64,000 bases of DNA. Source: Cupriavidus sp. D39. Its GTDB lineage: Bacteria; Pseudomonadota; Gammaproteobacteria; Burkholderiales; Burkholderiaceae. This document shows positions 2,530 through 42,383 of this stretch, one piece after another. The translations under genes and the position numbers were made by a program. The notes beneath the pieces are model-generated. The model had not been told where the DNA came from and did no database searches. It was given only the letters and a program-made list of their open reading frames with translations. Location of the stretch: the NCBI RefSeq assembly GCF_026627925.1, contig NZ_JAPNLE010000009.1:3100001-3164000 (forward strand), read 5' to 3'. Numbering within the stretch: the stretch's first letter is position 1; each line of letters starts with the position of its first letter.

Positions 2530-4007
2530 CTAGATGTCGTCGAGCGGATAGATCGGCCGCCGTACGTGCTCGAAGGTCAGCTTGCCGAAGTCGGAAGTCG
2601 TCACGCCGATGCTGTCGCACTCGAAGACATGCGCCGCCAGGTCGCCAAAGCCAGCGCGCCAGTGAACGCGGCTCTTCATTACCAGGAATTTCTTCCGCGC
2701 GGGATCGATGCCAAGGGCATGGAAGCAACTGAGGTCGAAGGGCTCCATATGCGAGGAGACCACGATGACCTGGACGGTATCGGCATCCAGCACCACCGTC
2801 TTGCCGGTGCTCACTTCCACGCCCGCGCTCATGGGACCGCTCAGACGGAAGCGCCCATCGCTGATCAGCCGCACGCGTGCGCTCAGCCGCAGGGGTTCAT
2901 TGCGATCTCCCGTTGCCGGCAAGGCGCAGCGCCCCCCAAGCGCGAGGGAGACCTCATTGCCGATGCCGGCCAGAATGGCTTCTTCGACGGCAATGGGATC
3001 GTGGATCGCATAAAAGACGGCGTCCTTGAGTTCCTGCCGCAGAACCTCCCGGAGCACCGCGGTGGTGTCCATGGTGCCGCCCGATGCAACATTGTCGCAG
3101 TGGTCCAGTAACACGACCGGACGGCCGTCGGCTGCCTTGGCGCGGGCAACGGTTTCGGCCAGCGGTGCGCCGTGATAGAGAAATTCGGCGCGCTGGTCCC
3201 ATGCCTGGTCCAGCAGCGCCTGGCAGGCCTCGCGGGCGCCGTCGGCGTCGCCATCGGCGCAGATGACTACGGACAGACCGGCATTGCGGACATCGGCATG
3301 CGGAAAAGCAGTGAACAGCGAGGCGGCGAGGATGCTGTCCCCGGCCTGCTCGAGCGCGATGCACGATGCCTGCAAAGACCGGTTGGGCTCGCCATGGGTG
3401 CCCTGGCGCATCACATGCGGCAGCATGGGCCGGTTGTCCCATGCCAGCACCGGACGGACTTTCCCTGGATGGCACGGCACAGCAGTTCCGCGGCACGCTT
3501 GCCGGCGGCCGCCATGTCGACGTGCGGGTAGGTGTGGTATCCGGTCAGCACGTTGGCGCGGGCGACCATCTCCGGATAGAGGTTGGCATGCATGTCGAGC
3601 GCGACGCCGATCAGCGTGTCCGGCTGCACCTCCCGCAGGCGCCGCAGCAGTTCGCCCTCGCCGTCCTCGAAATCGGGCGTCACCATGGCACCGTGCAGAT
3701 CCAGCAGGATGCCGTCGAACGCCTGGCTGGCCGCCGCCTCCACGATCATCCCGCAGATGCGCTCGTAGGCCTGCGGATCCACCGGCCCGCTTGGCGACGC
3801 CTCTGCCACCACCGGCACCACCATCTGGGCGCCATGGCGTTGCGCCACTTCGATGAATCCGCCGAGCGCGGTGCCTGTGCCGCGCCGCGCGGCGATCGCC
3901 TCGGCGCCGCTGAGGATCGCGCCTTCGCGGAAAAAGCGCTGGAACGGCGTGGGAACCGGTGAAAAGGTATTGGTCTCGTGTTTGAACGAGGCAAGCAGCA
4001 GCCGCAT
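2530..4007 (-). pseudogene. MlrC-like metallopeptidase (microcystinase C family), single frameshift
   Basis: Two frames join into one 492-residue protein. The first starts at ATG 4007, preceded by a clear AGGAG. It carries HETNTFSP near residue 10, DLHGAM and DMHAN, the conserved metal-site region of the MlrC/DUF1485 family. The second frame has the family C-terminal domain, including LLDHCDNVASGG. They meet at about 3470, where restoring one base to an AAA run (minus strand) continues the frame. The family is named for the last hydrolase of microcystin degradation, but most soil homologues act on unknown small peptides or amides. Its neighbours are a MarR regulator and a secreted-type hydrolase. 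The break could be a sequence error. Confidence 0.75.
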
Positions 4008-4177
4008 CGTTTCTCCTTCTGTTGAGATGGTTTCAGCGTCAGGCGACGCGCTCAGGCTGGCGCCTGCGGCGGTTGCGGCCAGGATCGTTGTGCTGGACCA
4101 GGGCATCCGGCACCAGTGGGAATGGCTGGCGGAACGATGGATGGAACATGGATACCCCCGGCTGGGAATTGACGAAT

Positions 4178-5097: not shown

Positions 5098-5169
5098 CAG
5101 GCAAGCATATCCTTGCACCCGGCGCAAAAATATCGTGCCGGTCTCAAGTGCGTTGTTGTACAGCGAAAC

Positions 5170-5184
5170 TGGTGGACCGAAGGA
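5170..5184 (+). repeat. Left attachment-site repeat
   Basis: TGGTGGACCGAAGGA matches the tRNA-Ala 3' end at 42308-42322 exactly and in the same orientation; the match stops on both sides. This is what site-specific integration into a tRNA gene leaves behind. Confidence 0.75.
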
Positions 5185-5554: not shown

Positions 5555-5950
5555 CTATTCAGAGGCCTCTAGAAAGCTGCGTAGGCGGCGCTCAAGTTTG
5601 TCTCGGTCTTTGAGTTCGCATTCCCACACGATATGAATTTGCCAGCCGATTGCAGTCAAGCGTTCGATGGCGGCCGCATCCCTTTCACGATTGCGAGCGA
5701 TCTTGGCAAGCCAGTAGGTCGAGTTTGTTTTAGGCACACGTGCTCCTCGAGGGCAATCGTGCCCATGCCAAAAGCAACCATGGACAAATATCGCTTTGCG
5801 GCGCCCGATGAACGCGAGGTCGGGCGAACCGGGCAAATCTTGACGGTGCAACCGAAAACGGAAACCGAGTGAATGCACGATTCGCCGCACGATAAGTTCG
5901 GGGCCCGTGTTCTTTGACTTGACTGCTCGCATGATCGTCGCGCGATCCAC
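5555..5950 (-). CDS. vsr: Very short patch repair endonuclease Vsr
   Basis: The 131-residue protein opens with the family signature MDRATIMRAVKSKNTGPE. It carries PGSPDLAF with the catalytic Asp, FVHGCFWHGHDC with the zinc-binding Cys/His cluster, and a conserved WECEL near the C-terminus. Vsr nicks 5' of T in T:G mismatches that arise when 5-methylcytosine deaminates, and is normally paired with a C5 methyltransferase. It diverges from the methyltransferase gene across 131 bp, so both probably share a control region. Length and motifs look complete. Confidence 0.95.
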   Translation of the reverse strand: MDRATIMRAVKSKNTGPELIVRRIVHSLGFRFRLHRQDLPGSPDLAFIGRRKAIFVHGCFWHGHDCPRGARVPKTNSTYWLAKIARNRERDAAAIERLTAIGWQIHIVWECELKDRDKLERRLRSFLEASE

Positions 5951-6081
5951 ACGTCAACCTCCTACTAAGCGGTTACATACAAAAGAAGAGACTGAAGCAA
6001 TCCTTTGGCTTAGAATATGTTACAAAAAGTTGGCGAAGTGATTAGCGTGGCACATGGCAGGGGTCGAACATATGGCGAAAA

Positions 6082-7260
6082 ATGAAACATAAATTCAGTT
6101 TTTACGAGTTTTTCGCTGGTGGAGGTATGGCCCGCGCAGGTCTGGGCAATGCCTGGGAGTGCCTCTTCGCTAACGACTTGGATCCTGTCAAAGCCTCAGC
6201 CTACGCCGAAAACTGGGGGAAGGACCACTTCGATGGCCGAGACATCAGCAAAGTGGCCGTGTCAGATCTCGGCGGTGAAGTTGATTTGGCTTGGGCATCG
6301 TTTCCCTGCCAAGATCTTTCTGTCGCTGGGAATGGCCTAGGAATTGGCAACGCGGATGCCAGAGCATCAACTCGATCGGGCGCGCTTTGGCCATGCCTAG
6401 AGCTTATTGAGAAACTACGGCAGCAAGGGCGCCAGCCGCCCTTGGTTGTGCTGGAGAATGTCGCGGGGCTCCTAACTTTGGATGGCGGGCGCGATTTTGC
6501 CGCGATCTGTACTAGGCTAGGCAAGCTCGGTTACCGTTACGGTGCAATCATCGTAGACGCCAAGCATTTTGTGCCACAGTCTCGGCCACGGGTATTCATA
6601 GTGGCTGTGCGCCGCGACATGCATGTACCGCGCCACCTCGACAATGGAATGGCTACGGCGAATTGGCACACTCCGCCTCTGCTTAGAGCATTTGCGAGCC
6701 TTGGCGCGAAGGCTCATAAGGACTGGATCTGGTGGGATCTAGGAATCGCTCCCAAGCTGCCGAAGAACGCCTTGATAAAGTCGATTGATAGGCGGCGCGC
6801 AGCATGGAATACGCCCGAGGAGACTGAACGACTCATTGGCATGATGGCGCCGAACCATCTCGCTCGGCTCGAGCAGGCTAAACACGCGGGATCTGCTCAG
6901 ATTGGCAGTCTCTATCTCCGCATGCGTCGTGAAGGTGAGGTGAACAAGCAACGCGTAGAAATCGCGTTCGACCCAACTTTGGGATGCCTAAGGACCCCAC
7001 GTGGCGGCGCTTCGCGCCCACGAATTATCCTGGTTGATGGCAATCATGTCAGAACGCGACTCCTATCGATTGAGGAAGCGGCGAGGCTGATGGGATTGGA
7101 TGCAGACTATGCCTTACCTGATGTTTATCATCACGCCTTCAAAATCATCGGAGATGGGGTAGTTGTGCCGGTAGTTCGATTCCTTGCGGAGCGCCTGCTG
7201 GAGCCGCTGGCACTAACGGCGCGCCGAGAAGCGCTGCAGGATAAGATCTGTGTGGCGTGA
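6082..7260 (+). CDS. druM: C5 cytosine DNA methyltransferase (DruM-like)
   Basis: All main motifs of m5C methyltransferases are present in 392 residues: FFAGGGMARAGL (motif I, AdoMet), DLDP, FPCQDLS with the catalytic Cys at about 76, LENV, QSRPRVF, and GDGVVVPVV near the end. The region between about 200 and 300 would be the target-recognition domain. The recognition sequence cannot be read. It begins a four-gene rightward operon with 25 bp before the next gene, and a divergent vsr precedes it. In type II Druantia a methyltransferase of this kind is the first gene and is thought to mark self DNA. It could also be read as an orphan methyltransferase, but the operon argues against that. Confidence 0.85.
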   Translation: MKHKFSFYEFFAGGGMARAGLGNAWECLFANDLDPVKASAYAENWGKDHFDGRDISKVAVSDLGGEVDLAWASFPCQDLSVAGNGLGIGNADARASTRSGALWPCLELIEKLRQQGRQPPLVVLENVAGLLTLDGGRDFAAICTRLGKLGYRYGAIIVDAKHFVPQSRPRVFIVAVRRDMHVPRHLDNGMATANWHTPPLLRAFASLGAKAHKDWIWWDLGIAPKLPKNALIKSIDRRRAAWNTPEETERLIGMMAPNHLARLEQAKHAGSAQIGSLYLRMRREGEVNKQRVEIAFDPTLGCLRTPRGGASRPRIILVDGNHVRTRLLSIEEAARLMGLDADYALPDVYHHAFKIIGDGVVVPVVRFLAERLLEPLALTARREALQDKICVA

Positions 7261-7285
7261 TCGCGAATAGACAAATCGAATCGCA

Positions 7286-9828
7286 ATGACTTGGAGGCCA
7301 CCGTCCACTCTTGCCGCTTGGGAACCACTATTGGTTAGGCATTTTTTAGCAATAGGTTCAGACGGTGACGCGAGCGATATTCGGTCATTCGAAGTGACGG
7401 CGAGCACGCTATCACTAGCATGCGGCGCCCCTCCTGGCGAAGAAGAGGCTGTAGAGAGGGGTTTCGGCGAGCATTTCTCGCCGACCCATTTTTGATTGAT
7501 TCTCTGCGATTTGGCTCGCAGCGCTATTCAACTCACGGCGTGCCAAACTTCTTCGCGTATCTCGCGGTGACGCTGTTTATCGATAGCCTGCTCGAGGGCA
7601 ACTATGCATCGTCTGGCGCCTTCCGAACGAAGCTCGCGAAATGGCTCGACGTTGACAACAGCTTCCAGCAACTCAAAGGAGTTGCCTGCATGTGGGAGGA
7701 GCTGGTTGGTTGGCTCGACGGGCGCATCAAAGCTGGTGAGCCATTCCGGCGTCTAGTTCTTCCGGAACAACATAGCTGGACACATATCGGCTATACGCGG
7801 CGTCTGTCGTTTCCGAATCGAACGGACATCCGGCTCATTGAGCGTTTTCTCTCAGAGCATCCTGGGGCCCTTAGCGAACCTCATATTGTACTGACCGAGT
7901 TCTGGAGAACGCTGCTCGATAGACGTGCATCCTGGGGACTGACAGTTGCTTTCGAGGAGTTTAGGCAATCTTACCTTCGCCGACGCCGCGCACTGGCCGA
8001 TCATCGTTTTTGGCGCCTACTCACTCGAGTTCGGGCGAGCCACGGTAGGTCTGAACGAAGCAATACCATTATCGAGATGATCTTCGATGAGGATGGCGAC
8101 AGGTCCTACTGCGGGCTTTCCGAATACGATGACGACCGGCGTTCCTACCGAAGTTTGGACGATGCTCTCCTGCAAGAGGCGGCGGCACGCAGCGGTAACC
8201 TCGGTGCCGCCGTCGCTCGTGGTGTGCTGTTTTTTCGGCAGTGCGGGATAGGCCGATGGATAGCAGATGCTGAACTAGGAAACTCAGCGAACGGTGTGCA
8301 TGTGGGGCTCCACGCGCGGCATTTAACTTTAGTGGGAGCTCAACTGGGTCGCCTTCTTTCCAGTTCGGGATGGTCGATTACACAGGAGCCACAGGCAATA
8401 AGAAGAGCCGAAGAGGCACTCATACGTGCACGCTTGTTAATCACCTCCGGCGAGCAAATTTTTCGGGCATCAGTGTCAAATGGCATTCGAGTCAAGGGAG
8501 CTTGGCTTGGTCGGCCAAACTTTCTTCCTACAGTTGAAGCCGATACTACTGATTTCACCGTTTCGGACAAGATGGGTGTGTCGGGTGTCCAAGCACTTCA
8601 CGTCACAGAAGGCGGCCAACTAATCACTGCCTCTCCTTTAGCTGGTTCGTATGTCGTCGAACCGGCGCTTCTGGATGGCGAAGAGCGCCCACAGTGGAGT
8701 CTTCGATTACAGTTCGCGAAAGACGCGCTCCCGCACCTTGCCATCGACGGTGCCCGTCATCGTCTGCCGCGACTCAATGACTGGTCTGGGGCTTGCTCCT
8801 CGCCGATCGTGTCTAAAAACCAAGACCCTCTCAAATGGGAAAGTGGACGAGTAGCAAGCGAAGATTTGCTCGAGGCCGTTTACGCCGATGGCGTGTCCGG
8901 TTGGGAGGAAGCTGAGCTCGTCGGTCTTATCCGTCGCGCTGGCCTTGACGTCCACCCGTGGTCGATGCTTCGCTGCCTCGGTGATGCCGGCCTTATAGAG
9001 CCGCGGCTCCGCGAAGGATGGCGGGGCCGGAGCTGGACGTTAGTCGCACCTCGTATCGTCAGGCTCCACATGGATGCCAACGAGCTTGTCTTGGTCGAAG
9101 GTGCGCTGTGTACACGGCTTGTCGAAGACTTTCAGTTGGCAGTTGATGGCTTGGGTGGAACTTGCTTCCGGCGTCTTGGAATAAGTGAGCTGTCGCCACC
9201 AACCATTGGCGCCAAAAATGTACCGGCCGAAGCACTTGCGCAGCGATTGAGCTGGCCACTAGTCAGCAACGCACGCGTAGCCGGCATTTCACCTCTCGCA
9301 TTGGAGACTGCGAACCGTCATGCTGAACTCTACCAACTGGCTTCAATTTGGGACTGGGATCAGCGCCGCTTCAAGGATCATGCCACGGGACATAGCCCCG
9401 TCCGACTCACACGGCGTATCCATCCGGGTGGTAGGGACCATGACATATTTCGGGTCGAGCATCATGGTCAATCGATAAATTATTTGTCGCGTACTGCGGC
9501 GATATGTGCAGCACATGCAGCTGCGTCGGTCCCCTTGTTCGAGATACGCGAGAATAGGTTAGTTCGTCTCGCGCACGATGGCGGCGTACCAGACGCTCTC
9601 GCGACCGACTTGCGGCGTCGACGAATTAGGACGGCGGGACCGATTGACGATGCGTACGCCTACCCAGCAACGGAAAGCGATGCTAAATGGCTTGCCTCAT
9701 TGCTCCCTGGATGTGTGGCAGGCATATTGTCCGCTCCCAAATACGATGCAGGTCAGGTTATCTCTACGGCGCGTAGGTCTGCCGGACGATTGCGACCCCT
9801 GTGGCGTGGGGGACGACTCCTTTTATGA
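7286..9828 (+). CDS. druF: Druantia type II DruF-like protein (one frameshift)
   Basis: A frame from ATG 7286 ends at 7495 and a second frame continues to 9828. Adding one T to the TTT at 7474-7476 joins them into 847 residues (HFLADPF). I recognise no enzyme motif and no Walker box. A winged-helix-like stretch (DLLEAVYADGVSGWEEAEL through LGDAGLIEPRLREG) lies at about residues 530-580, so DNA contact is possible. The DruF name rests on its place between a methyltransferase and the DruG/DruE-like genes and on its size, so homology is not shown. It starts 25 bp after the methyltransferase stop. Confidence 0.6.
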
Positions 9829-9853
9829 TTTGCGATAGTTGAGGTATGGATCG

Positions 9854-11977
9854 ATGACGGGAAGCATTCCTTGGTACGCGGGCCGATGCGTGCGACGCCA
9901 CGATGTAATCGCACATATCGAGATCATCTCCCGCCGAACGGAAGATGGCTGGGCATTGGTCGAAAATGCGCAAAAACTATTTCCCCGGTCAGGCGAGGTC
10001 GAGGTGCGCGGGGTGGACACCAGATCGCTTCGCTCGGGTGAATGGGTTGCTCTGCAGATTGCCTCCAGGGAGCGAATGGGGCGCGGTCTATGGAAAGCCG
10101 CACGCCACCGACGGCTTGCCCATTTTGCAGACTTATCGCATCTCGGATCCCTTGATGATGCGCGCAAAGTACTGGCTATTGACGGCCTGCAAACCTCCGA
10201 ACCTTCGGGCGCATGGATTATTCGGATTCGTGATAGTGAAGTCGTTCAAATGGACCTCGTTCGCTATGGCGAGGGCGGGCTCATTGCGTCGAGCACATCG
10301 AAAGTACTTGCCTATGTTTTTGATCCGACAGCTGTCGTTCAAATGCCAAATGGCGTGGCTCGTGTCGCGCTGTACGACCTTGGGCAGGATGCTTCGCCTA
10401 GTACCGCCTACGACTGGTCGCCAGAGGATAACTATGTTGCCCGCATCGTCCGCTCGCTCGCCGGAGCGCATGATCCGCGGATCGCTGACGTCATAGCCTG
10501 GCTCGAGCGGCACGCTGACGAAGTTACTGGTCGCTTGTCACTTAACGGAGCTGACCTTGCCGCCGCATATGAGGCCTTGCGCTCTGGCGAGCTTGCCAAA
10601 CGACTGGCCGCTGATCAAGAGCTGCTGCGCGCGTTTGCTATTGCTCTCGGGTCAGCGCCGAAGATTAAAGGCTTGATCGAGGCGGAAATAGCCATGATCG
10701 CTGCGGAGGAGCGCGGAGCGATCCGAGCGTGCGCGCAGTTGGAGCTTGCAGAGGAGATTCAAGACAGCCGACGCGAGCGACTGTCTGCCCTCGACGCCGA
10801 GCTTCGAACACGCGAGGATGAAGCGCGTACGGAGTTAGAGAGGCTTCTAGCTGCACAATTGGCAGCTGTCGATGAGACATTGGCTGAGCGGAGGGAAAAA
10901 GGCAGCGCCGAGATTAATCGAAGCATTGGGCTTCAAAGGGCAGCTCTTGATAGCACGGTGGCTGAGCTAACCCAAGTGCGGGACACGCTCGCCGAAGAGG
11001 TCCGGGAGCTCGAGCCTATGGTAAGGGAGCTCAGTACCGAGCTCGCGTCGCTACGAGAGAGTGAAGCTGAGGCTGCAGTCAACCTGGATCGCCTGCTGGC
11101 CGCAGCTACAACGACGGGGGCGCTGCCGAAGGGCAACTCAGCCGAATCCCTAGTACCGATTCCGGCCCCCTCTCGTAGTCGAATTGTCGCCGCAAGTGAT
11201 ATGTGGCAGGCCATTCGGCGCTGCGCGCTGCTTACCGACGCCGGCAGAACACTTATGGAGCAGTTCCTCGCCCTTACACTTGCCGGCGACGTGCCAATTC
11301 TCACCGGCCCGGAAGTTGCGGACTTTCTACTAATCGCCGAATCGATGCTTTCCTCCGGAGCGTCGGCGCGGCTTGTCGCTGACCCCACAGTCCTATCATT
11401 TGAGGATCTCTGGATGCGGGCGGGGCTCGGGGTTCTAACTCCACTGGGGCAGGCACTCAAGCTCACCGGTGGCGACAACCCCGTGACTCTGGTCGCGGTA
11501 ATAGAAAAGGCTGAGCAATCTGGCTCACGCTTCTGGTTTCCGGCGCTTGCCGACCGTGCGCGTCGCGGCGGGCTACCCCGGCGGCTACTCATTTGCACGA
11601 CGGTCGAGGACGAGACCTGTGAAGAAGCTAAGGTCCTTCTATCTCAAGGAGTGTCACTCGATATGAGGTCCGTAATCAACGAAGGCGCGGCGGCTATCGC
11701 CGCACTGGCGCTAAGCGAAAGTGAACATCGTGAGTTTGATCCCGGTGAGTGGATGACTGACGTAACCGAGGGTATGCGAGCGACAGCGACGATCGCTGAT
11801 CGGCTCGACATAGCAAGGGGAATCCGTGCTGCGCGAGCGGCCGCTGAGGCATCCAGGTTGGCTCCCGTCGATGAATCACAGGCACACAGTCTCGCAATAG
11901 CAAATCTCTTCGTAAAAAAATCGGCCGGAGACAGACCGGCACTTTCGATCCTACAACAGGGAAAATCCAGTGCTTGA
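9854..11977 (+). CDS. druG: Druantia type II DruG-like coiled-coil protein
   Basis: The product has 707 residues from ATG 9854; a TTG start at 9839 is possible but less likely. Residues of about 270-420 are rich in Glu, Arg, Leu and Ala with heptad spacing, predicting a long coiled coil. The N-terminal third and the C-terminal 200 residues look globular and match nothing I know. No Walker A, nuclease or membrane motif is visible. A coiled coil between globular ends suggests a scaffold or dimer bridging DNA and the helicase. It starts 25 bp after the previous gene and its stop overlaps the helicase start by 8 bp, so the two are translationally coupled. The DruG name is by position. Confidence 0.6.
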   Translation: MTGSIPWYAGRCVRRHDVIAHIEIISRRTEDGWALVENAQKLFPRSGEVEVRGVDTRSLRSGEWVALQIASRERMGRGLWKAARHRRLAHFADLSHLGSLDDARKVLAIDGLQTSEPSGAWIIRIRDSEVVQMDLVRYGEGGLIASSTSKVLAYVFDPTAVVQMPNGVARVALYDLGQDASPSTAYDWSPEDNYVARIVRSLAGAHDPRIADVIAWLERHADEVTGRLSLNGADLAAAYEALRSGELAKRLAADQELLRAFAIALGSAPKIKGLIEAEIAMIAAEERGAIRACAQLELAEEIQDSRRERLSALDAELRTREDEARTELERLLAAQLAAVDETLAERREKGSAEINRSIGLQRAALDSTVAELTQVRDTLAEEVRELEPMVRELSTELASLRESEAEAAVNLDRLLAAATTTGALPKGNSAESLVPIPAPSRSRIVAASDMWQAIRRCALLTDAGRTLMEQFLALTLAGDVPILTGPEVADFLLIAESMLSSGASARLVADPTVLSFEDLWMRAGLGVLTPLGQALKLTGGDNPVTLVAVIEKAEQSGSRFWFPALADRARRGGLPRRLLICTTVEDETCEEAKVLLSQGVSLDMRSVINEGAAAIAALALSESEHREFDPGEWMTDVTEGMRATATIADRLDIARGIRAARAAAEASRLAPVDESQAHSLAIANLFVKKSAGDRPALSILQQGKSSA

Positions 11978-14900
11978 TCCGATTGGCGGCTTCAGCCGTA
12001 TCAAAGATTTCTTCATCTCGTACGTGGAGACAAACTTCCGGATCTCAGATTCTGCCGCAGCCAAGGCACGCTTTGAGCTTCTGAATACTCTCAATGTGCT
12101 CGCAACCGAACCATTTGTCGAACCGGTATTGCGATATGAATCGCACGACAAGACGCTAGAGGAACTCGCGGCGCAAGCGAAGGGGCCGCTCGAACCTCTT
12201 TCCCCGAAGGGCCGCCGAGCATTCGTTGAGCTCGCATTGTCGGGCCTATTCGATGGTGAGTCGAGTGAGGGGAAATCCGGCGTAGGTCACTGTACGCGCC
12301 CTATCGGCATCAGATCTCAATGCTTGAGCGGGGGCTCAGACCAGGCCATCCAGGGATCGTGGCGTCCGGGACAGGTTCGGGCAAGACTGAGAGCTTCATG
12401 CTTCCCGTACTGGCCGCAATCGCGAATGAAGCGGTGACCTGGCCAGAACCGCCGAAAGACTATCTACAGAACGACTGGTGGGCGGAAGCCGGTTCAAGGT
12501 GGATCCCTCACCGTCACGGGGAAGCGAGGCCATCTGCTGTGAGAGCATTGGTCCTATACCCGATGAATGCGCTCGTCGAAGACCAGATGGTTCGCTTACG
12601 CAAGACGCTTGACTCCGATGAAGCGCACGCCACGATGGACGATCGGTTCGCCCGAAATCGAATTTTTTCGGCCAATACACGAGTTCGACGCCAGTAACAG
12701 GCTATGAGCGCCATCCTCGTTTGGCCGACGACTTAAAGGAGAAGGCACGGCGTGCGCGACGCGTCAAACGGCTCCGCAACGCCATGCAAGCCACTAAGGC
12801 TAACCAGGACGCCGCACGGGTTCACGATGAACAAGCATCGAAGGAAGCTACCGAGCGTGGAATGCAGACGCCCGACAAGACCAGATTCATCTTTCCCTCA
12901 GTAGGCGGTGGGGAGATGACGTCCCGCTGGGACATGCACGACGCACCACCTGATGTCTTGGTTACTAACGCTTCGATGCTGGGCGCGATGCTTTCGCGCG
13001 AGGTCGAGGATCCAATATTTGACCAGACGCGGGAGTGGCTTCTGTCAAATGAGGATGCGTACTTCTACCTCATCTTTGACGAGCTGCACCTTATCCGTGG
13101 TTCGGCGGGTACTGAAGTCGGCTTTCTTATGAAGTCGTTGCTAGATCGGTTGGGCCTGAGCCGACCCGAGCATCGCCACAAGCTGCGCATACTGGCATCA
13201 TCAGCTTCGCTGCCAATGGAGGGGGACGGAGGCATTCAGTCGCGGACCTACCTTCGCGATTTTTTGCGCCATATGGTACCAGTGCAACCCGAGGTGACCC
13301 AGGGTCGACCAGTCCAGATTTTTGGAACGATTGTGTTATCAAGGGCGTGCCTAAGATACCGTTAGCGCTCGGAGGAGCCATCGATCCAGCACCGTTCGTT
13401 CGCCTGATGCTTGCGGCACTCAAGGAACAGAACGGGTTCGTCGCTAAGCTGAGGAAGACTCCGGAAATTAGCGCCGCGATCCATGAGGCAGCGAGCGCAC
13501 TGTGCGTCGCTGGTCAGAATGATGACGATCTGATCAAGAAGCTCGCTGAGGCTGCGGCCGCCGTTTTGACCAATGCGTGCAAAGATGGCGAAGGAGTGCG
13601 AGCAACCGCCGCTAGCGAAATAGCCCGCCGGATTTTCCGCTCCAATGAAGAAGATCCAGATATGGCGCTGCGAGGGTTTATGCTTGCTCGTGCCCTACCA
13701 GAGTCCGGCGAATGGCAAGCGAAGGTTGCAATTGAGACGCCTGCATTTCGCGTTCACACATTTATTCGCAATATCGAGGGCCTATTCGCCGCTCCTCAGC
13801 TACGCGACGGAGTCGTTACCTTCAGAGATTTCACGGTCGAGCGTGGGACATCGCATGCAGCGCCGGGCCTAGGGGAAAAGCGAGGCCTTCGGCTTTTCGA
13901 ACTGCTCTACTGTGAAGCATGCGGCGACCTTTTTGTCGGCGGTCAGCGTGGACAGAAAAGCACTACAAGCAGGGCCACCGAACTTCTACCGTCGACCGCG
14001 GATCTTGAGGGGCTGCCCGAGCGCGCTTCGTCGGAGTACTACGACTCTATGAAGCTCGATGAGTTCGCTGTGTTCTGGCCACGGCGCGATGAATGGGCCG
14101 GTTCAGAGAAAGATTACGATCGTTGGGAGCCAGCGTACCTCAATCCGGAGACAGGTGTCGCAACTATCCATGAAGATGTGCCGGATGGTCGCATTGGAGG
14201 GTATCTTTACTATCAAGAAGACGCAGCCGTTAGAGGCCCGAAAGGCAAGATCACTGGGAGCAAATCTGCTCAGCCTTTTTGCTGTCCGAAGTGCGGGACC
14301 GATTATTCAAATCGACCGGCGGCAAATCGTTCACGTTCCCCAATTCGCGCGTTTCGCACCGGCGTCACAAAGGCGTCTCAACTTGTAGCAACAGAGCTCT
14401 TCGAGCTGCTCCACGCAATCGGTGCTGCGCCTAAGGGCATCGTTTTCTCCGATAGTCGCCAGGACGCAGCCAATCAGGCACTAGAGATCGAGCGCCTACA
14501 TCTGCGTGACCTTCGACGAGAAGTCCTCGTCGCCGCGGCACGGAGCTACGTTACGAGGGCGGCGAACGAGTGGATGTCTCACGATGATTTTCTGGCCCGC
14601 TTCTCGGAACTGCAGGAAGCTGGACGTGAGGAGGAGCGTGCGGCGTTGCTAGATCGCTATTCCAAGCAGAGTCGGGATGCGGCGGGCGGCGCTGGAGGTC
14701 GCAAAGTCAAGCTCGACCGTTTGTTGCAGCATAACGTCAGCGACGGGTCAATTGGAGACCTGGTAGCAGAGTTTGTCCGGATAGGCACTCACCCGTTTGA
14801 TGAGGCGGGGCTGCAGACCTTCGAGCAAAGGCCTTGGTATCAGCTCTTTGATAAGAAGGGAGACGCGATCGACTACACGCAGACGCTCTCGCAGGCTTCG

Positions 14901-17839
14901 CGCGCCAAACTCAATGGCATCATCCTGGAGCGACAGTACGAGCTTATCGATGACGTCATCTTCGCAAACACATTCTTCGCTCTCGAAGAGACGGGACTAG
15001 CTTATCCTTCGGCGTCGAAGGGGATCGATGCTAAGGCGGACGAGTTGGACGCCTGGTTACGAGTATTTGCTAAAGCCACGCGTGTTCGCGACAATAAGTT
15101 TGCCGATGACAGTCGCATGACTGAATGGGTGTCTGGAGCCGACGTGTTTCACAAGCGGACGACTCGCTTTGCAAAAATGGTATTCGGTGACAATGGCCAT
15201 GTTGAGGGGTTGACGGGAGTCCTCAATAGATTTGCCGATCTCGGACATAAGAGTGGCATGTTTGAGATAGGGAATCTTTATCTTAAGGTGGCTGAGGCAA
15301 GCGATCCATATTGGCGTTGCGGCAATTGCGAACGCGTCCACATGCATCTCGGTGTCATGCGATGCACAAGATGTGGCGAGGGGCTCCAGAAGGAGCCTAC
15401 CGGTAAGGTTGAGGCGCTGTGGCGGAGCAATTTTCTTGGCCGTCGCATTATGCGAAGCCACGACGACGGAGTAAGTCGTTTTCGTCTGCGAGTCGAAGAG
15501 CTCACTGGCCAGACTGATGATTTTTCGGAGCGATTGCGTAAATTCAAGGGAATTTTTGTTGACGGCGAAAGTGAAATTCAGAAGCTCTCTGCTGAGATAG
15601 ACATGCTGTCCGTAACAACCACCATGGAGGTGGGAATCGACATTGGCGCACTTCAGAGCGTATATCAGGCGAATATGCCTCCGCAGCGGTTCAACTATCA
15701 ACAGCGAGTCGGTCGTGCTGGACGTCGTGGACAAGCATTTTCCTTTGTGGTGACCTTTTGTCGTGGGCGGAGCCATGATGCATACTATTTTGCGCATCCG
15801 GAAGCGATTACTGGTGATCAGCCGCCACCTCCTTTTCTTGCTGTTAGCCACGATCCCATTCCGCTCCGGCTGCTGCGCAAGGCGTGGCTCCGTGAGGCGT
15901 TCAAGCTACTGCGCGACGAATGCAAGGCGAAAGGTCAAATCTATCCCGGTGACATACTTGTACCGCCAGATGTGCACGGTGAGTATGTAACGACTCGCGA
16001 TTATTTTTTTGACTCGGAGGCCGCATGGAAAGACCGGCTTCGTCGGGCTCTTGAGTTGACCATACAAAAGCGAGATGATTATGCTCACGCGGCGACTTTC
16101 AATGAAGCGCAGCGCGATCGCTTGCTAGCGAGGGCTACGGTGGATGAACTTTTGTCCGATATTGACGAGCTCGGTACGCTCGCCCCTAACGCCGGATTCG
16201 GGCTCGCTCGCTTTCTAGCCGAAGGTGGCCTACTGCCGATGTACGGTATGCCAACTCGAGTGCGCGAGCTCTACCTCGGCCTTCGCTCCGACAAGGATAG
16301 CGCCTCTCCTGAGTACGAATGGTCCACAATGGATCGAGACCTTGATCTCGCGGTTTTTGAGTTCGCTCCCGGTGCGATCTTAGTAAAGGATAAGCAAAAG
16401 CACCGCGTAATAGGCTTCACCGGTGACCTAGCGGAGCCTCAGCGCCGTGGTTCTGATGTTGAGATACGGGCTGTTTCGAACTGGCTCGAGTCCAAGACTT
16501 ATGTCGCTCTGTGTCCGAGCTGCGGCTCGGCGAAACACGATGAAAGCGAGCCTGCCACAGTATTGAACTGTGATGATTGTCACGAAGAGATTCCGCCGGA
16601 GGAGTTTCATCTTTACGTAACACCTACCGCGTTTCGCACTGACTTTCAACCGAGGACCAACCTGGATGAGGTTGGTCGAATGGCGTTTCGAACGGTAGCG
16701 ACGGTGCTTCGCGAAGGGGAGCGAGTGGCGTACGGGAAAATGGCAGTTCGTCGTGGTGCGGATGTCACTGTTATGCAACTTAATGATGGCGTTTCAGGAG
16801 ACGAAGGTGAGGGCAACCGATTTGTCATCAATCTCGCCCAGGATCAGGGAGTACCGGTGCCATTGCGGTCGAAGCCGCTCACAATCGACGGACCCCAGGC
16901 AATTGAATCTTCTTTCTTGGAAAAGGAGCGCGGTAGTCGCTGGGCGGCTAAGCAAGATTCTCAGATGACCTTCGGCCTCATTGCTAGCAAGAAGACTGAT
17001 GCCCTCTACTTAGAGTTGACAACTTTGATCCTCGACTAAACCTCGACATGGTTACACGGCGTGGCTCAAATTCAAACCTGCCGACGCGCGCCGCGGCTAT
17101 CAGCGCAACTCAGATACTTATCCAGAAGGCAGCACTTGAGCTCGACGTCTCGTCGGATGAATTCGAAGCACTCGAGCCGCGTCTGAGGTCCGGACTTCCG
17201 ATGCTCCAGATCGCTGATGCTTTGATCAATGGATCGGGACTCTGTAGACGACTTGGAGAGTCCATAGGTTGCGGCCGACCGCCACAAATCGTGGAAATGA
17301 TTCACTCAATTCTCGAAAACCAGGAGGAATGGCCTCTTCAGGACTTTGTGAGTGTCAATCACGAAGGGGCTCACTTGGAGCGTTGTTGGACCTCATGCTA
17401 TCGATGCATTCAGCGGTATGGTAATAGGCGCTATCACGGTATTCTCGACTGGCGTTTGGGTCTCTCATATTTGCGCGCGATGGTATCGCCCGATTACACG
17501 TGTGGACTTACGCGCAGCGATGAGGGCTTGCCCGAGATATTTGGATGGCGCAGGCGAGCACACGAGCTCGCCGAGACCGTGGCTGAAATGCGCCGGGGCA
17601 CTCTTAAATACAAGTCGTTGGAGTATTCTGGTCTTCCTTGTCTCATCGAACGCACGCTCGACGGTGTGGAAGTCGGGCGCACCGTCGTAGTTCATCCGCT
17701 TTGGCGGCATACCGATCCGGGAGTAATGGCTGAGCTTCTGGGGCCGGAATGGTCGACCAACCTTCGTTTTGTCGACACGTTCAACCTTGAACGGCGTCCT
17801 CTACGCGCGCTTGCGGAACTCAATGATGCGCCTATATAG
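11970..17839 (+). CDS. druE: Giant DEAD/DEAH-box helicase with DUF1998 region, DruE-like (four frameshifts)
   Basis: Five frames join into one 1957-residue protein when one base is restored near 12275, 12666, 13317 and 17036. Helicase motifs appear in order: GTGSGKTES (Walker A), YPMNALVEDQ, FDELH, SSASLP, IVFSDSRQDA, TTMEVGIDIG and QRVGRAGR. Cys pairs near CCPKCG, CGNC...CTRCG and CPSCG...CDDC suggest zinc ribbons. The C-terminus carries the DUF1998 signature CWTSCYRCIQRYGNRRY. DruE is the defining Druantia component and is about this long. It begins with GTG overlapping the upstream stop. DrmA/DrmB of DISARM also combine such domains but are separate genes, which favours Druantia. Whether the gene works here depends on whether the four breaks are real. 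Confidence 0.8.
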
Positions 17840-27300: not shown

Positions 27301-28734
27301 TCAAGCGTCGATGGGCACCAGCTCCACGTCGATGGTAGCCACCACCCCGCCCGGGAGGTCAATCTCGAAGCTCGGCGGGCCCTGCGACGGCAACCCGGCG
27401 GCCGAGAGCGTGGGGTAGGCCAGCCGAGCGGCCAGGCAGCGATAGCGCGTGAGGTAAGCCACCAACTGGTGCGCGTCCTTCTCGTCGACGCCCCAGTCCT
27501 TCTTGGAGGGGTCCAAGCTCTTCCACTTTGCGTCGACGATGGCGGCGGGCGCCCCTTCCTCCCTGTCCACGCCGTCAGGCCATAGGAGTACGTCCGGCAT
27601 GAGGCGGAAGGCGGTTTTCACGCGGCCGGCAGCGCGTTTCTGGGGCGCGCTCCCCGCGCCGCCTGCGCCGTCGCCACCGGCCGCCGCGGCGGGCCTGCGG
27701 TGGGCGACGGTGGAGAGGTAGCGCGGCGAGCCTTTGAGGCGGACCTCGATCCCCTCCGGCGCGCGCCGGCGCTCGTGGCGGGCGACCCAGCTCTCGAAGA
27801 TGGGCTCCATGTTGAAGAGCAGCGCGGGCGCTTCGGAGGCACCGGCCGCAAGCGAGGGCGAGAGCAGGCCCAGGAGCAGCTCGGCCCAACGCAAGGCCTC
27901 CTCGTAGCGGGCCGTCTCGCGGCCGCGCTTGAGCCCCGCCACGCGCTTGGCATCCGTCCGGACCAAGGAGACGCCCCCGAAGAAGGCCCTCGCCTCCACC
28001 CAGAGCCGCTCGGTGGCGGCCTGGCGGACGTGGGGGCGGCAGCGCTCAATGGCGGCCAGCAGGGCCTGGTTGTAGGCGTTGTCGGGCGTGAGCTCGTCGT
28101 GCGAGCAGCGGACCAATCCCGGGCGGGTCGCCGCCAGGCGCTCGGATTCCACCAGGAGCATCCTGCCGCGCAGCACCGGCAGATCGTCCTCGGACTCGAC
28201 GTAGCGGGTGAGCAGCCCGCCCTTCGCTACCTTGAGCGCCTCGCGCAGGTAGGAGCGGATGAAAAGGTCCAGCAGCGTTGCGCGGGCGGCCGCCTGTGGC
28301 GCCATGTCCAGCTCGGCGATGGAAAGTCCGCTGGCCAGGGCGAGCATTCGCAGCAGCGCACGTCTGGCCCTCCCCGCCCCCTCGGCTCGCTCGGCCGCGT
28401 CGGCCTCGGCGGCTCCGCCGTGGCCATCCCAGATCTTCGGTAGAACCTCCAGGACCACACCTCGGCCCGCCCCGCCGGCGCCGAGCCGGACTAGACCGCA
28501 ATGCTTGGAAAGCGCGATCCCCTTGAGCGTCCGCGAGCAGAAGTCGGAGCGGGTGGCGTTGACGCGCTCGAGCACCTCGGCCTCGGCGTGCGTCAGGGCG
28601 AGGCGCCCCGCGTCGTCGCGGCCGTCGGCGGGGAGTCCATCGGCGCGCGCGCGCTGGCGCAGCGCCGCCACGTCGCCGTCGGGCGCCACCCGGATGGTTT
28701 CGCGCTCAAAGGCGAACAGGGCAAGGGTCGGCAT
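27301..28734 (-). CDS. mcrC: McrC-like subunit of a McrBC restriction system
   Basis: The 477-residue protein starts at ATG 28734 (MPTLALFAFERE). It has the McrC N-terminal domain and, near the C-terminus, a PD-(D/E)xK-type nuclease core: FRLMPDVLLW gives the Asp and AIVDAKWKSLD gives the D-A-K element. McrC is the nuclease partner of the McrB GTPase; the complex cuts DNA carrying modified cytosines. It follows mcrB by 16 bp on the same strand. It is longer than E. coli McrC and interrupted by Gly/Ala-rich stretches (AAAAGGDGAGGAGS). Composition is far more GC-rich than the Druantia genes, implying a different origin. Confidence 0.85.
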   Translation of the reverse strand: MPTLALFAFERETIRVAPDGDVAALRQRARADGLPADGRDDAGRLALTHAEAEVLERVNATRSDFCSRTLKGIALSKHCGLVRLGAGGAGRGVVLEVLPKIWDGHGGAAEADAAERAEGAGRARRALLRMLALASGLSIAELDMAPQAAARATLLDLFIRSYLREALKVAKGGLLTRYVESEDDLPVLRGRMLLVESERLAATRPGLVRCSHDELTPDNAYNQALLAAIERCRPHVRQAATERLWVEARAFFGGVSLVRTDAKRVAGLKRGRETARYEEALRWAELLLGLLSPSLAAGASEAPALLFNMEPIFESWVARHERRRAPEGIEVRLKGSPRYLSTVAHRRPAAAAGGDGAGGAGSAPQKRAAGRVKTAFRLMPDVLLWPDGVDREEGAPAAIVDAKWKSLDPSKKDWGVDEKDAHQLVAYLTRYRCLAARLAYPTLSAAGLPSQGPPSFEIDLPGGVVATIDVELVPIDA

Positions 28735-28750
28735 GTGCGCGTCCCTGGGA

Positions 28751-30926
28751 TCAGACGCCCGCGCCGGTGGCCGGCGCGGCCTCAGGGTCGTTGGCGGCGG
28801 GAGGCTCGGCTTGGGCGCCAACCAAGGGCTGGGTGGCAGGACCACCTTCGTCAGCCCCACCCTCGTCCGCGCCGGACGGCCCAGCGCCGGGCGCGGCTTC
28901 CTCTGCAAGTTCGTCGATGTCCTCGAACTCGGCTTCGACCCCCTCTTCGTCCGAGGGATTGATGGGAGCCAGTGCCGCGATGGCCGCCTCTGCGTCGTCA
29001 TCACGCAGGTAGAGCCGGATGAAGTCGGCCGCGGTCCACGTGGCAAGGTCATCCGACGGCCGGATGGAGACCCGCGGATCGAGCCCGTCGAGATCCGCGG
29101 ACTGGTCGAAGAGCTTGGAGGGCTCCAAGGGCCGCTCCTCGAAGAAGGCCGAGGGCTTCGAGGATCCCGTCAGCGCGAGCTTGGCCTTGCCCAGGTCCTC
29201 GAAGAAATACTCTTGGAGCAGCGGGATCACGCGGCGGGAGAAGGCCCGCCGCAGGTCCCAGAGGTTGCCCACGCCCATGAGCAGCGCGTGGCCCAGAGCG
29301 TGGTCGCCGTCGATGAGGAACTCGATGCGATCGTTGATGGCCGCCAGCAGCGCCCGCAAGTCGACGCCGCCCACCTTCGCGGCGGGCAGCAAGCGGGGAT
29401 CGGCGGGAGTCTCGGTGAACTCGAAGCGCCGGCGCAGCGCACGGTCGATGGACTGTACCGAGCGGTCTGCCGTGTTCATGCTCGCGATGATGTCGAGGTT
29501 CGCCGGCACCGCCAGCTCGTCGCCACTGTATTGGAGGCGGACCGCCGTGCGTGCGCCGGAGAAGTCGAGCTTCGGGTTGGGCGCGCAGCGCTTGCTCGGC
29601 TCAAGGATGGTGATGAGCTCGCCGAAGACCTTGGCTACGTTGGCGCGGTTGATCTCGTCGATCAAGAGCGTGTGCCGCACCTCGGGATGCTCGTGTGCGG
29701 ACTGGCAGATTCGTCGGAAAGGCCCGGGGACCGGCGTGTCGCCCAAGCGCCCGCCCTGCCCCTCGCCGGGCGATACCCCTCGACGAAGTCCTCGTAGGAA
29801 TACGACGGGTGGAAGGAGACGAACTCGACCGTCTCGCCGGCCGCGTGGCGCTTCTTTCGGATCGTCTCGAGCGCGTGCGTCTTGCCCGATCCCGGCGGAC
29901 CGAAGAATATACGGTTGCGCGGGTTCCAGACCCCGCCCGGCGCACCTGCGCCATCCTCGTCGTCGTCCTCATCGAGGCCCGCCACTACCGATTCGGCCGT
30001 AATGGCCGGCATCGAGATCTCCAGACCCTGGGCCTTCGCCTTCGGCGGCTTCTTGAGCAACGGAGGGTCGATGTAGTAGTCGATGTCGTGGCCAATCTCG
30101 CGCTCGATCATCTGGCGCGCGTCGAGCAGCGCAGCATCGCGGACGTGCCGCGGGGCGCGCTGCGAAGGGATGATGCCCAGGCGCTCGTGGCGAGCCAGCA
30201 AGGCCTTCCCCTGCTCGGCGAAGATGCGCTCGAAATAATCGGGGAAGAGAGCGTGCGAGAGGATATGGTAGAACTGTCGGCCCTTGGCTTCGCGTGCCAT
30301 GTCGAGCCACTTGGCGAACGCCCAGGGTTGGAGGCTGCCGGCCTCGGCCGCGCCAGCGTGGTCGCTCGCGCCATCGGCTCCGGAGAGCGGCGGCGCGCTC
30401 AGCAGCTCCGTCCGCCTGGTCTCGGGCATTTCCGCAAGATCCTTGAAGACACGGATCGCGTATGCAAGCTCCATCCATAGCAGCAGACTGTAGGCGGCGC
30501 CGGTGTTGCCCACGCCTTCAAGGGCCGTCGGCTGCAGGTAAGGCGAATCGTCAGAGATGCTTGGCAGCGGCGAGTTGGCCATCCCCCAGATCTCCCGGAT
30601 CCGCTTGAGCTTGGAGTCGACCTTTAGCTTGCTCGATGCGAGCGTTAGGATCCAGTAGATCTCCGCGCAGAGCGCGACGCTCTCGGCCGGGCACTTGGAG
30701 AGCTGCTTGCGGAGCTTGTCCCAGAAGTTCTTCTCGTCCTCCGCATCGTTCTCCGGGATCGGCGCCTCGACGTAGTGCCGGATCAGGGGCTCGAAGTTCT
30801 CGGGGACCCAAAGGGTCTTGCCGGGCATGAATAGGGAGCGCCCCCGATCAATGCCTCATTCTTGAACTGTTCAGCGATGCGGTAGGTCTCGGCGCTGTTC
30901 TGGTGCTTGGGGATGTGGCGGCTCAT
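28751..30926 (-). CDS. mcrB: McrB-like GTPase subunit (two frameshifts)
   Basis: Restoring one base near 30843 and one near 29766 gives 725 residues from ATG 30926 (MSRHIPKHQN). The AAA+ GTPase core shows GPPGSGKTHAL (Walker A), then FHPSYSYEDFVEGYRP, LLIDEINRAN (Walker B), ASMNTADRS (NTAD motif typical of McrB GTP binding) and ALRRRFEF. The N-terminal 300 residues would be the DNA-recognition part that reads modified cytosine, and do not look like the E. coli DUF3578 domain. The C-terminal 80 residues are acidic and repetitive. An m5C-dependent nuclease on the same island as an m5C methyltransferase implies that the methylated site is not a target. Confidence 0.85.
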
Positions 30927-38402: not shown

Positions 38403-38438
38403 GGCCCGCCGACCGGTTCCAATCGGTGGTGGCGGGCC
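38403..38438. repeat. Hairpin-forming inverted repeat
   Basis: GGCCCGCC and GGCGGGCC enclose 20 bases, with a further ACCG/CGGT pairing inside. It lies 25 bp before the start of the 37998-38378 gene, in what should be its leader. An RNA attenuator or an immunity-type structure, as P4 uses in its leader, is possible but not shown. Confidence 0.45.
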
Positions 38439-38543
38439 AGACGGCGAGGTTGGAACTACCGGCACACACGGCAACCGGCCAGCCTTGCGGCTGCCTCACC
38501 CGGCCCGCCATAGAAAAAGGCGCGCGCAAGCGCAGACGAACAG

Positions 38544-38564
38544 AAAAAAGCCGCTTCGGGCGGC
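38544..38564 (-). terminator. Rho-independent terminator after the KilA-N gene
   Basis: On the minus strand GCCGC-CCGAA-GCGGC is followed by six T. It lies about 170 bp downstream of the KilA-N gene and would separate it from the DUF1376 operon. Confidence 0.75.
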
Positions 38565-38731
38565 TGTTCGCCGTGTGTTGTTCGGGGTTCCAATCCCGGC
38601 CCATGCTGTTTCATGGACCGCCTGAGTATAGCTCGGAGCCGGGGGATTGCAAGTGCGTTCCAGGTGGCTTGCGACGAGTACAGGGCCAACTTCGATCGAA
38701 GGGGGCTGCAAGTGCGCCGGGCAAAGGGGGA

Positions 38732-39483
38732 TCATGCGGTCCCTCCGTTCGTCTGGCCCAGGCCCATGACGTGCCGCTGAATGTAGGTCAGCCCCTTCCC
38801 TGTGACTAAGGTGCGGCAGTAGACGCACGTTTCGCCGTGCCGGTTGTTGAATTTCCGCTCGACCACCCGGAAGCGCCCAGCATCGAGGTGCTCCTGATAT
38901 GGCACATTGTTCCGCATCAACAGCCCGCGGTCGCGCAGGATCGTGAACAGCCGGTTCGGGCCGGTGCCCAATATCTTTGCGACCTCCTGAACGGTTTGGC
39001 AGTTGACGGCCTCGGTCACAGAGTCGTGAAACTCCACTTTCGGAGCCTGCTCGGCCACCTTGGCTGTGAGCTGGCTATTCTGTTCCGCCAGATCGGCGGC
39101 CAGGCGCAGCGCTTCCGGCAGAGATTGAGGGACAGCAAAGGCAGGGGCGCTCCGGTCCGACGCCATCGCGTCATAGGCGCGGATAACCTTCAGGTGGAAG
39201 GAGGCACTGATCCACATGGCGTAGGCGTAAACAAGCTCCTTACAGACGTAAGTGCCGCCGCCGTTACCGCGCTTGGCCTCGAGTGGGGTAATACGGGAAT
39301 TTCCCGTATTTGAAATTTCGGAGATCAGCTCGCACGTTTCGGGGCGGCGCATGAACTCGTGTACCTCGACGGTGCGGCTGTTCATGCCGGCGGTGGCGGC
39401 GCGCTGCAGGTCGTTGAGGCAGTAGCGGCCGGCGGCATCCATACGAATGTCAACGCCCTGAATTGCTAACCCCCGGCGCTCAT
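38732..39483 (-). CDS. KilA-N / antirepressor protein (one frameshift)
   Basis: Restoring one base in the C5 run at 39470-39474 connects ATG 39483, which overlaps the preceding AlpA gene by 4 bp, to the long frame. The 250-residue protein has a KilA-N domain (VDIRMDAAGRYCLNDLQRAA, then TYVCKELVYAYAMWISASFHLKVIRAYD). After a coiled linker comes the KilAC/ANT domain (EVAKILGTGPNRLFTILRDRGLLMRNNVPYQEHLD). Such proteins act as phage antirepressors or DNA-binding regulators. A 21-bp palindrome, shared with 22815-22835, lies inside the coding region. Confidence 0.8.
39290..39310. repeat. 21-bp perfect palindrome, copy 2
   Basis: The arm AATACGGGAA is inverted around one base, as at 22815-22835. 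Here it encodes part of an NTGNSRI peptide in the KilA-N gene, so coding constraint alone might explain it, but the non-coding twin argues for a binding site. Confidence 0.55.
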
Positions 39484-39695
39484 GCTGCCACCTCGGCGCG
39501 GTAGCCGGCAGGGTTCGCCAGGAACGCGTCGATCTGGCCACGGCGCCACCCGACAGCACGCGGCCCGAGTTGGACGGCAGCGGGGAACGTCTTATCTTTG
39601 ATGCGCTGGTAGATGGTGGAGCGCGAGAGCCCAGTTTCGGACTCGACTTGCCGTCGGCGCAGGATCGTCTGCGCGGACTGTGTATGTTCGGCCAT
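39480..39695 (-). CDS. AlpA-family regulator, second copy
   Basis: The 71-residue protein begins MAEHTQSAQTILRRRQ and shows the AlpA winged helix: RRRQVESETGLSRSTIYQRIK, then FPAAVQLGPRAVGWRRGQIDAFL. ATG 39695 was chosen because the preceding 34 codons look non-coding. Its stop overlaps the KilA-N start by 4 bp. Lying near the integrase, it is the better candidate for the island's excision regulator. Confidence 0.85.
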   Translation of the reverse strand: MAEHTQSAQTILRRRQVESETGLSRSTIYQRIKDKTFPAAVQLGPRAVGWRRGQIDAFLANPAGYRAEVAA

Positions 39696-40929: not shown

Positions 40930-42143
40930 TCAGGCGGCAGGACCGGAGAACGCCAATACCTTGGCTCCCAGCTTCAACTCGTCTAGGTAGTCTGCCCAGC
41001 GCTGCATCATCTCGCGCCGCTCCCTCATGAATTTCGTTCGGTTATACGCCGTGCCCAACGCATCCGGCACTTTGTGGGCGAGCTGGTGCTCAATTACCTC
41101 GGGCTTGATATGCAATTCCTCATGCAAGATCGTCCGTGCCATCGCCCGAAACCCGTGGCCGGTGATCTCGGTTTTCGTGTCGTACCCCATGCGCCGAAGG
41201 GCGGCGTTTACCGCGGCTTCGCTCATGGCCTTCTGTGGGTCACGCCCCGGAAAGACGTAGCGCCCGTGGCCCGTTAGTGCGGCCAGCTCGCGGAGGATGA
41301 CGACCGCCTGCGTGGCCAGCGGTACCGTGTGTTCTGTTTTGGTCTTCGTCACGAAGTAGCGCCACTCCGCCTTATCCAGATCGAACCCGTCCCACTCAGC
41401 CTTGCGCAGCTCACCAGGCCGGACGAACAGCAGCGGAGACAGCAGCAGCGCGCACCGGACGACGAACGTGCCCTTGAACGCGTCGATGGCCCGCAACAGC
41501 GCGCCCACCTTCACCGGGTCGGTGATGGAAGCAAAATTCTCGTGTCGGGCCGGCTGTAGTGCGCCGCGCAGATCGCCGGACGGGTCACGTTCCGCTCGGC
41601 CCGTGGCGACGGCATACCTGAATACCTGCCCGCAGTTCTGATGCGCTCGGTGGGCGGTATCAAGCGCCCCCGCGCCTCTATACGGCGTAACACCGCCAGC
41701 AGCTCCGCCGCGCTTATCTCTGCGACGGGCCGTCCGCCCAGCCAGGGGAAGACGTTCTTCTCAAGGCGCTGAATCACCTTGTCCGCATGACTGTCGGCCC
41801 AGCCTGGGGACTGCTTGGCAAACCATTCGCGGGCGATGATCTCGAAGCTGTTGGTCGCTCGCTCGAACCTCGCGGCCTTCTGTGCCTTACGATTCTCGCC
41901 GGGATCCACGTCATTCGCCAAGAGCTTCCGGGCGGCCTCCCGGCGCTCCCTCGCCTCCTTCAGCCCCACATCCGGGTAGACGCCAAAGCTCAGCCGCTTC
42001 TCTTTGCCCGCAAAGCGATACTTCATCCGCCACCACTTGCCCCCGCTGGGAGCGACTTCCAGGTAGAGGCCGCCGCCGTCGAATAATTTCTGGGTCTTGT
42101 CGGTCGGCTTGGCGGTGCGGATCGCGGTATCTGTCAGCGGCAT
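40930..42143 (-). CDS. int: P4-type tyrosine integrase of the island (one frameshift)
   Basis: Restoring one base in the C5 run at 41667-41671 joins two frames into 404 residues. The N-terminal DUF4102 arm-binding domain is clear (LTDTAIRTAKPTDKTQKLFD, GGKWWRMKYRFAGKEKRLSFG). The core-binding domain follows, then the catalytic residues: R in RPGELRKAEWDG, the box HGFRAMAR, H in EHQLAHK and the Tyr in LGTAYNR. It lies 165 bp from the tRNA end, the usual place for such integrases. If the break is real, the element cannot move by itself. Confidence 0.9.
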
Positions 42144-42307: not shown

Positions 42308-42322
42308 TGGTGGACCGAAGGA
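42308..42322 (+). repeat. Right attachment-site repeat
   Basis: These 15 bases are the 3' end of the tRNA gene, including CCA, and equal 5170-5184. Confidence 0.75.
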
Positions 42323-42383
42323 GGATCGAACTCCCGACCTCTGCATTGCGAACGCAGCGCTCTCCCAGCTGAGCTATCGGCCC
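42308..42383 (-). tRNA. tRNA-Ala, anticodon CGC
   Basis: The 76-base gene folds normally. The acceptor GGGCCGA pairs with TCGGTCC (one G-T), the D arm is GCTC/GAGC, the anticodon stem is CTGCG/TGCAG with loop TTCGCAA, and the T arm GGGAG/CTCCT has loop TTCGATC. CCA is encoded. The anticodon CGC reads the Ala codon GCG. It lies 40 bp downstream of soxB and its 3' end is the island's attachment site; the inserted repeat restores an intact gene. Confidence 0.95.

Follow-up and report, generated by a model that had tools for sequence, protein, structure and literature searches.

A type II Druantia operon accompanied by a divergent vsr gene on a tRNA-Ala island of Cupriavidus sp. D39

The Druantia operon and the vsr gene

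We analysed 64,000 nucleotides of the Cupriavidus sp. D39 genome (contig NZ_JAPNLE010000009.1, positions 3,100,001 to 3,164,000; referred to here as the window), in which a type II Druantia defence operon, druM–druF–druG–druE, is found on the forward strand with a gene for the very-short-patch-repair mismatch endonuclease Vsr divergent from it on the reverse strand (window positions 5555–17839; Table 1). The genes of the operon are closely spaced, with 25 bp between druM and druF, 25 bp between druF and druG, and −8 bp between druG and druE. An earlier reading made from the sequence alone (the sequence-only reading) had described a C5 methyltransferase, two large proteins and a helicase with these spacings and had assigned them to type II Druantia, and both the description and the assignment were confirmed by the coordinates and profile searches reported here.

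Table 1. Positions of the operon, vsr and island features in window numbering.
Feature	Position	Strand	Description
Left attachment repeat	5170–5184	+	15-bp exact copy of the tRNA-Ala 3' end
vsr	5555–5950	−	Very-short-patch-repair mismatch endonuclease, 131 aa, divergent from druM
vsr–druM gap	5951–6081		131 bp between divergent start codons
druM	6082–7260	+	C5 cytosine methyltransferase, 392 aa, open frame
druF	ATG at 7286 to 9828	+	One frame break in 7427–7470
druG	ATG at 9854 to 11977	+	707 aa, open frame
druE	GTG at 11970 to 17839	+	YprA-family helicase, DUF1998-type cysteines, five frame segments
Integrase	40930–42143	−	Adjoins the tRNA, split into two overlapping frames
tRNA-Ala(CGC)	42308–42383	−	Right island end

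Each product was matched by its type II profile from PADLOC. The druM product matched DruM2 (PDLC00028; 622 bits, 5.9e-188) as well as PF00145 (146 bits), and carries PCQ, ENV and QSRPR motifs whose roles in DruM we presume to be the usual ones. DruF2 (PDLC00019; 1028 bits, E = 0) matched an 802-aa piece of the druF product over positions 57–847 of the 850-position profile, and the N-terminal part of DruF is matched by its relatives in a different frame (tblastn). The druG product matched DruG2 (PDLC00025; 805 bits, 1.3e-242), and weak matches suggest that its middle part may be coiled-coil-like. DruE2 (PDLC00014) was the top profile on each of the four druE pieces scanned, with 1395 bits on the largest, and the CWTSCYRC motif of a DUF1998-type end, pointed out in the sequence-only reading, is located in the final druE segment. 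The assignment to type II is therefore supported by all four profiles, by gene order and by strand, the type II order reportedly being druM–druF–druG–druE in the 2018 description of Druantia.

Two other assignments were rejected. DISARM or another DUF1998 system did not provide the better match to the helicase, as DrmA gave at most 24 bits compared with 1395 bits for DruE2 on the largest piece, and Druantia type IV was rejected as both DruM2 and DruG2 are present. The PADLOC paper, where it treats the Druantia types, describes type IV (DruE, DruF and DruL) as being without DruM and DruG (PMC8565338), so that the operon resembles type IV in having related DruE and DruF proteins but differs from it in these two genes. 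Compared with type II Druantia as known, the same four genes occur in the canonical order and match the type II profiles; what differs is that the druE and druF frames are broken in this assembly and that vsr has been added on the 5' side.

The Vsr protein scored above both curated cut-offs (144 bits with TIGR00632, cut-off 97.85; 98 bits with PF03852, cut-off 27) and could be aligned with E. coli Vsr (1cw0; E = 6e-28), with conservation of the PD and HGCFWH motifs whose roles in Vsr we take as established. A promoter scan of the gap between vsr and druM found no sigma-70-like site.

The frames of druM, druG and vsr are open as assembled, and tblastn comparisons with three relatives with intact DruE and DruF placed breaks in druE near 12270, 12665, 13261 and 17009–17018 and the single break in druF in the interval listed in Table 1. 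The sequence-only reading, which gave protein lengths 'after repair', was apt in this respect with four frame breaks in druE and one in druF. The lengths of 847 (druF) and 1957 (druE) residues agree with the coordinates of the unmended frames.

Occurrence of vsr in Druantia loci

Loci for a survey of vsr were gathered by DruG or DruE rather than by Vsr, and comprised six genome-contig loci together with loci from plasmid records and further genomes, all scanned with profiles built from the first locus set. The M. gregans locus is split over two contigs, the second of which was added following a Vsr search of that genome. Inclusion was based on druE, druF and a C5 methyltransferase, plus druG except in Rubrobacter, and the 21 genomes gave 20 distinct loci, G1341 and M. 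gregans being counted once because they have the same Vsr and DruM rows. Besides the split M. gregans locus, three others were kept despite flaws: L023 (no druG match), L005 (the rest of druE on another contig) and G1089 (methyltransferase at only 101 bits). Those dropped before the count were L024 and L025 (cyanobacteria; methyltransferase, druG and vsr not found), G694 (no methyltransferase and no vsr), L026 (a methyltransferase beside an MvaI/BcnI-type enzyme; no druF or druG match and no vsr) and G747 (a DruE4-best helicase with no druF or druG match), while seven plasmid matches each covering less than 50% of the query (H14–H20) and one 57% complete genome match (G675) were outside the survey.

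The linkage of vsr to these loci is recurrent but not universal, with vsr present in 16 of the 20 distinct type II or type II-like loci having a C5 methyltransferase (15 of 19 without the window), so that the absence from nearly all related loci envisaged in the sequence-only reading did not occur. No vsr was found in any of 24 other Druantia-type loci (the stretches searched mostly reached several kb either side, a few of them being cut short on one side; four of these loci were typed, two as type I and two as type III), nor in three type II/IV-like loci which have no methyltransferase. In three of the four loci of the survey that lack vsr (L004, L005 and L008), alternative repair genes were looked for among ten neighbouring proteins, and no T:G glycosylase-like family was found.

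Five of the surveyed loci (L018, L019, L020, L021 and L059) have differing C5 methyltransferase subfamilies in the DruM slot, four scoring best on MTase_II profiles and one on DruM2; from this variety the DruM slot is a swappable module. A plasmid of Rubrobacter marinus (Actinomycetota) carries a locus (L023, 3129–14641) with vsr, druF-like genes, a C5 methyltransferase and a helicase that scores best on DruE2, whereas the PADLOC paper reports type II Druantia from Proteobacteria only (PMC8565338). The excluded G747 (L113 and L173), whose helicase scores best on DruE4, has two vsr genes beside two C5 methyltransferases and does not fit type IV as described.

Wider searches did not extend the set. 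DruG2 at E ≤ 1e-20 recovered already known loci only in 369 genomes of the class, 398 of the phylum and 25 others, and was not found in any of the 35 same-genus genomes searched. There was no match to DruG in viral contigs and there were two weak matches only to DruE in phages; no near match to the window DNA was found among plasmids, and a distant-match search of E. coli genomes with 3.9 kb of the P. schmalbachii locus gave nothing.

The role of Vsr and the state of the operon

Our preferred explanation, to which we give a probability of about 0.7, is that the type II Druantia operon is cargo of an island at tRNA-Ala and that Vsr is an auxiliary which pays the mutational cost of DruM and is not needed for defence. 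DruM would presumably methylate cytosine in a motif of the host and so mark self DNA, and DruE with DruF and DruG would presumably attack DNA which lacks the mark or is in some phage-specific state. Where 5-methylcytosine made by DruM deaminates, C:G would become T:G, and the linked Vsr would nick beside the T so that C could be restored; Vsr might thus travel with DruM and offset the mutational cost while being dispensable for defence. Repair of T:G mismatches following DruM methylation is the best-supported role for Vsr judging from the sequences, in keeping with the conserved Vsr motifs and the presence of vsr in 16/20 type II or type II-like loci compared with 0/24 other Druantia-type loci.

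A vsr gene accompanying a methyltransferase has been described for Dcm and for Neisseria Vsr in the relevant part of PMC12907096. The window resembles these dcm–vsr pairs in the link between Vsr and a C5 methyltransferase and in the Vsr motifs; unlike in these pairs, the methyltransferase, DruM, is part of a defence operon, and vsr is divergent here and at the far operon end in 7/16 related loci with vsr. The operon itself is an already known system, and within the literature covered by our searches (on Druantia, Dru genes, very short patch repair, and Vsr with cytosine methyltransferases, covering paper listings and selected passages, with the 2018 description outside the search) no link between vsr and type II Druantia was reported.

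A number of results weigh against this explanation. No vsr was found in four of the 20 loci (a Halomonas metagenome-assembled genome, P. avellanae, Pseudomonas sp. PDM16 and G1089): a Vsr profile search of the available genome sequences gave no match in the first three (one a metagenome-assembled genome and one a small-contig draft), G1089 has no vsr within 50 kb, and three of the four fall in the same DruM clade as the DruM of the window. Several of the 24 control loci end at a contig end on one side, where vsr could be missed, and in L007, L016, L018 and L020 the methyltransferase is 1.8–3 kb from the druF–druG–druE core and could be part of a different system. In favour of the explanation, sequence distances of Vsr and DruM are correlated across the 16 loci with vsr (Mantel r = 0.76, with a partial r of 0.45 when DruE is taken into account), but the correlation of Vsr with DruE is nearly equal (r = 0.72), and that with DruM may come from shared ancestry alone, the permutation test ignoring relatedness.

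The comparison with other methyltransferases also belongs here. In relatives and in the genome itself, with the window locus excluded, vsr is within about 10 kb of 9/27 C5 methyltransferase genes, and 16/20 is significantly more than this (p = 0.003), but many of the 27 score low, and of these low-scoring methyltransferases most are long. We rejected this enrichment because it is gone when the comparison is with the 13 restriction-type enzymes (at least 100 bits with a DruM-derived profile), of which nine have vsr (Fisher p = 0.68; the cut was set after the scores had been seen, and two further genes at 96 and 99 bits are both without vsr). As the frequency near restriction-type C5 methyltransferases is nearly as high, vsr follows the methyltransferase and not Druantia as such. 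The sequence-only reading had proposed that vsr protects the host from T:G mismatches created by the methyltransferase and is thereby a functional part of the system; the first part of this survives as the role we favour, but 'functional part' goes too far because vsr is absent from 4/20 loci and is no more frequent than beside the restriction-type methyltransferases.

These same frequencies would also be expected if vsr were a mere neighbour that arrived with a C5 methyltransferase captured from a restriction system and had no meaning for Druantia, and the variety of subfamilies in the DruM slot, with ordinary MTase_II profiles the best match for most of those scanned, fits this too. We nonetheless regard it as quite unlikely given where vsr is found. 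In seven of the 16 loci (A. pusense, R. mucosa, M. bullatum, S. medicae, A. tumefaciens F2, G1344 and G1305) vsr lies beyond the core operon on the side away from the methyltransferase and more than 10 kb from it, with six of the seven on the druE side and five abutting druE, whereas the largest gap between vsr and methyltransferase among the nine control pairs is about 3.3 kb (Fisher p = 0.027, with small numbers, related loci that are not independent, and a control window of only about 10 kb either side). The position of vsr in type II loci is therefore an unusual feature. Vsr from the window falls into a single clade (97/92) with the Vsr proteins of P. schmalbachii and A. pusense, and within this clade vsr is 5' and divergent in two loci and 3' and co-directional in the third, as if it had moved yet stayed with the operon.

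The druE-side position could be explained by a partnership of Vsr with DruE, which would account for vsr being on this side, over 10 kb away from the methyltransferase gene, in 6/16 loci. Vsr might be the nuclease of the Druantia complex and substitute for an inactive nuclease-like domain at the end of DruE, which is possible but very unlikely; we would give only a slim chance to the related idea of a free-standing active Vsr nickase that acts with DruE and cuts at helicase stalls or unmarked sites. A profile search found no similarity to Vsr in the end of DruE, and Foldseek/VIA returned no Vsr chain among the matches listed, which does not exclude it (the fold model rests on six sequences with a mean predicted local distance difference test score of 62.5). 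Alternatively, Vsr may stabilise the operon as a mild addiction module rather than provide repair insurance, if loss of DruM were to make the breaks produced by Vsr during mismatch repair harmful. The divergent vsr of the window could be expressed without druM, but four loci manage without vsr, and vsrA is unlinked to scmA in Caulobacter so that an addiction effect does not need linkage; we consider it unlikely, although it and the repair role we prefer are not mutually exclusive.

A different doubt concerns the operon, which may be a decaying pseudo-system. The five breaks affect two genes and leave the frames of druM, druG and vsr open, and the rate of frame switches in this genome (1.27 per 10 kb in 20 stretches) is not clearly higher than in three relatives (0.86 in 12 stretches; Mann–Whitney p = 0.51), so a generally error-rich assembly is not supported. 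Against decay, each break examined in the window (four in druE, one in druF, and one each in the M81 peptidase and integrase genes) lacks one base when read in the sense direction, and no more than about two residues separate consecutive druE segments, with similar identity to relatives on either side. T6 runs are found in two of the five druE and druF break intervals, where such runs occur in about 1–2% of intervals of the same size. Since 7/7 breaks are one base short and two are at T6 runs, deletion-biased sequencing error is likelier than decay, and we think a pseudo-system doubtful. The M81 peptidase (MlrC-like) gene (2530–4106, reverse strand) consists of two overlapping frames and is one base short, as in druE.

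Type II Druantia has been little studied, and if a mismatch-repair nickase comes with most of these systems, then methylation is probably an active part of them for which the host pays a price. Were this true, vsr would point to the loci where DruM is truly in use, and comparing intact loci that have vsr with intact loci that lack it would provide a ready test of the cost of DruM methylation. If vsr were instead needed for defence, a missing nuclease of the system would have been found.

The island at tRNA-Ala

The operon is cargo of a mobile island of about 37 kb (5170–42308) integrated at tRNA-Ala. The 3' end of tRNA-Ala(CGC) (42308–42322) is repeated directly and exactly over 15 bp at the left attachment site, and the adjoining integrase gene has Arm-DNA-bind_3 and Phage_int_M domains in 41511–42143 and a phrog_1 integrase match in 40930–41514. 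In the near relative G1417 the DNA immediately upstream of the tRNA resembles window positions 5145–5184 (16 bp exact, the remainder by eye), and a stretch matching 351–1006 stops 117 bp short of the tRNA; from this layout and the repeat it follows that the island fills the interval. Druantia and vsr are at the distal end of the island and the integrase at the tRNA end, and further cargo includes a resolvase, a tyrosine recombinase, a ParB-like protein, a McrC-like protein, a KilA-N/ANT antirepressor, a DUF1376 protein, a C4 antisense RNA and isrK. Defence islands integrated at tRNA genes with 16–20 nt repeats are described in the portion of PMC12458937 dealing with such integration, and the island resembles these in its tRNA-adjacent integrase and in the short direct repeats that flank it; it is unlike them in its type II Druantia and vsr cargo, its 15-bp exact repeat, and its P4-like C4 antisense RNA and isrK.

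The McrC-like gene (27301–29052, reverse strand; PF10117, 177 bits) would place a 5-methylcytosine restriction component on the same island as a C5 methyltransferase, and in Rhizobium sp. WSM4643 mcrC (L020, 14345–15436) directly adjoins type II Druantia. The C4 antisense RNA and isrK are side by side (38425–38618, reverse strand) and adjoin the KilA-N/ANT antirepressor gene (38732–39559) as a P4/P1-like immunity region. Four genomes of the same genus (G023, G021, G035 and G018) have partial second copies of the tRNA-Ala 3' end at distances of about 3.6 to 15 kb from the gene, and tRNA-Ala looks like an integration hotspot on this basis.
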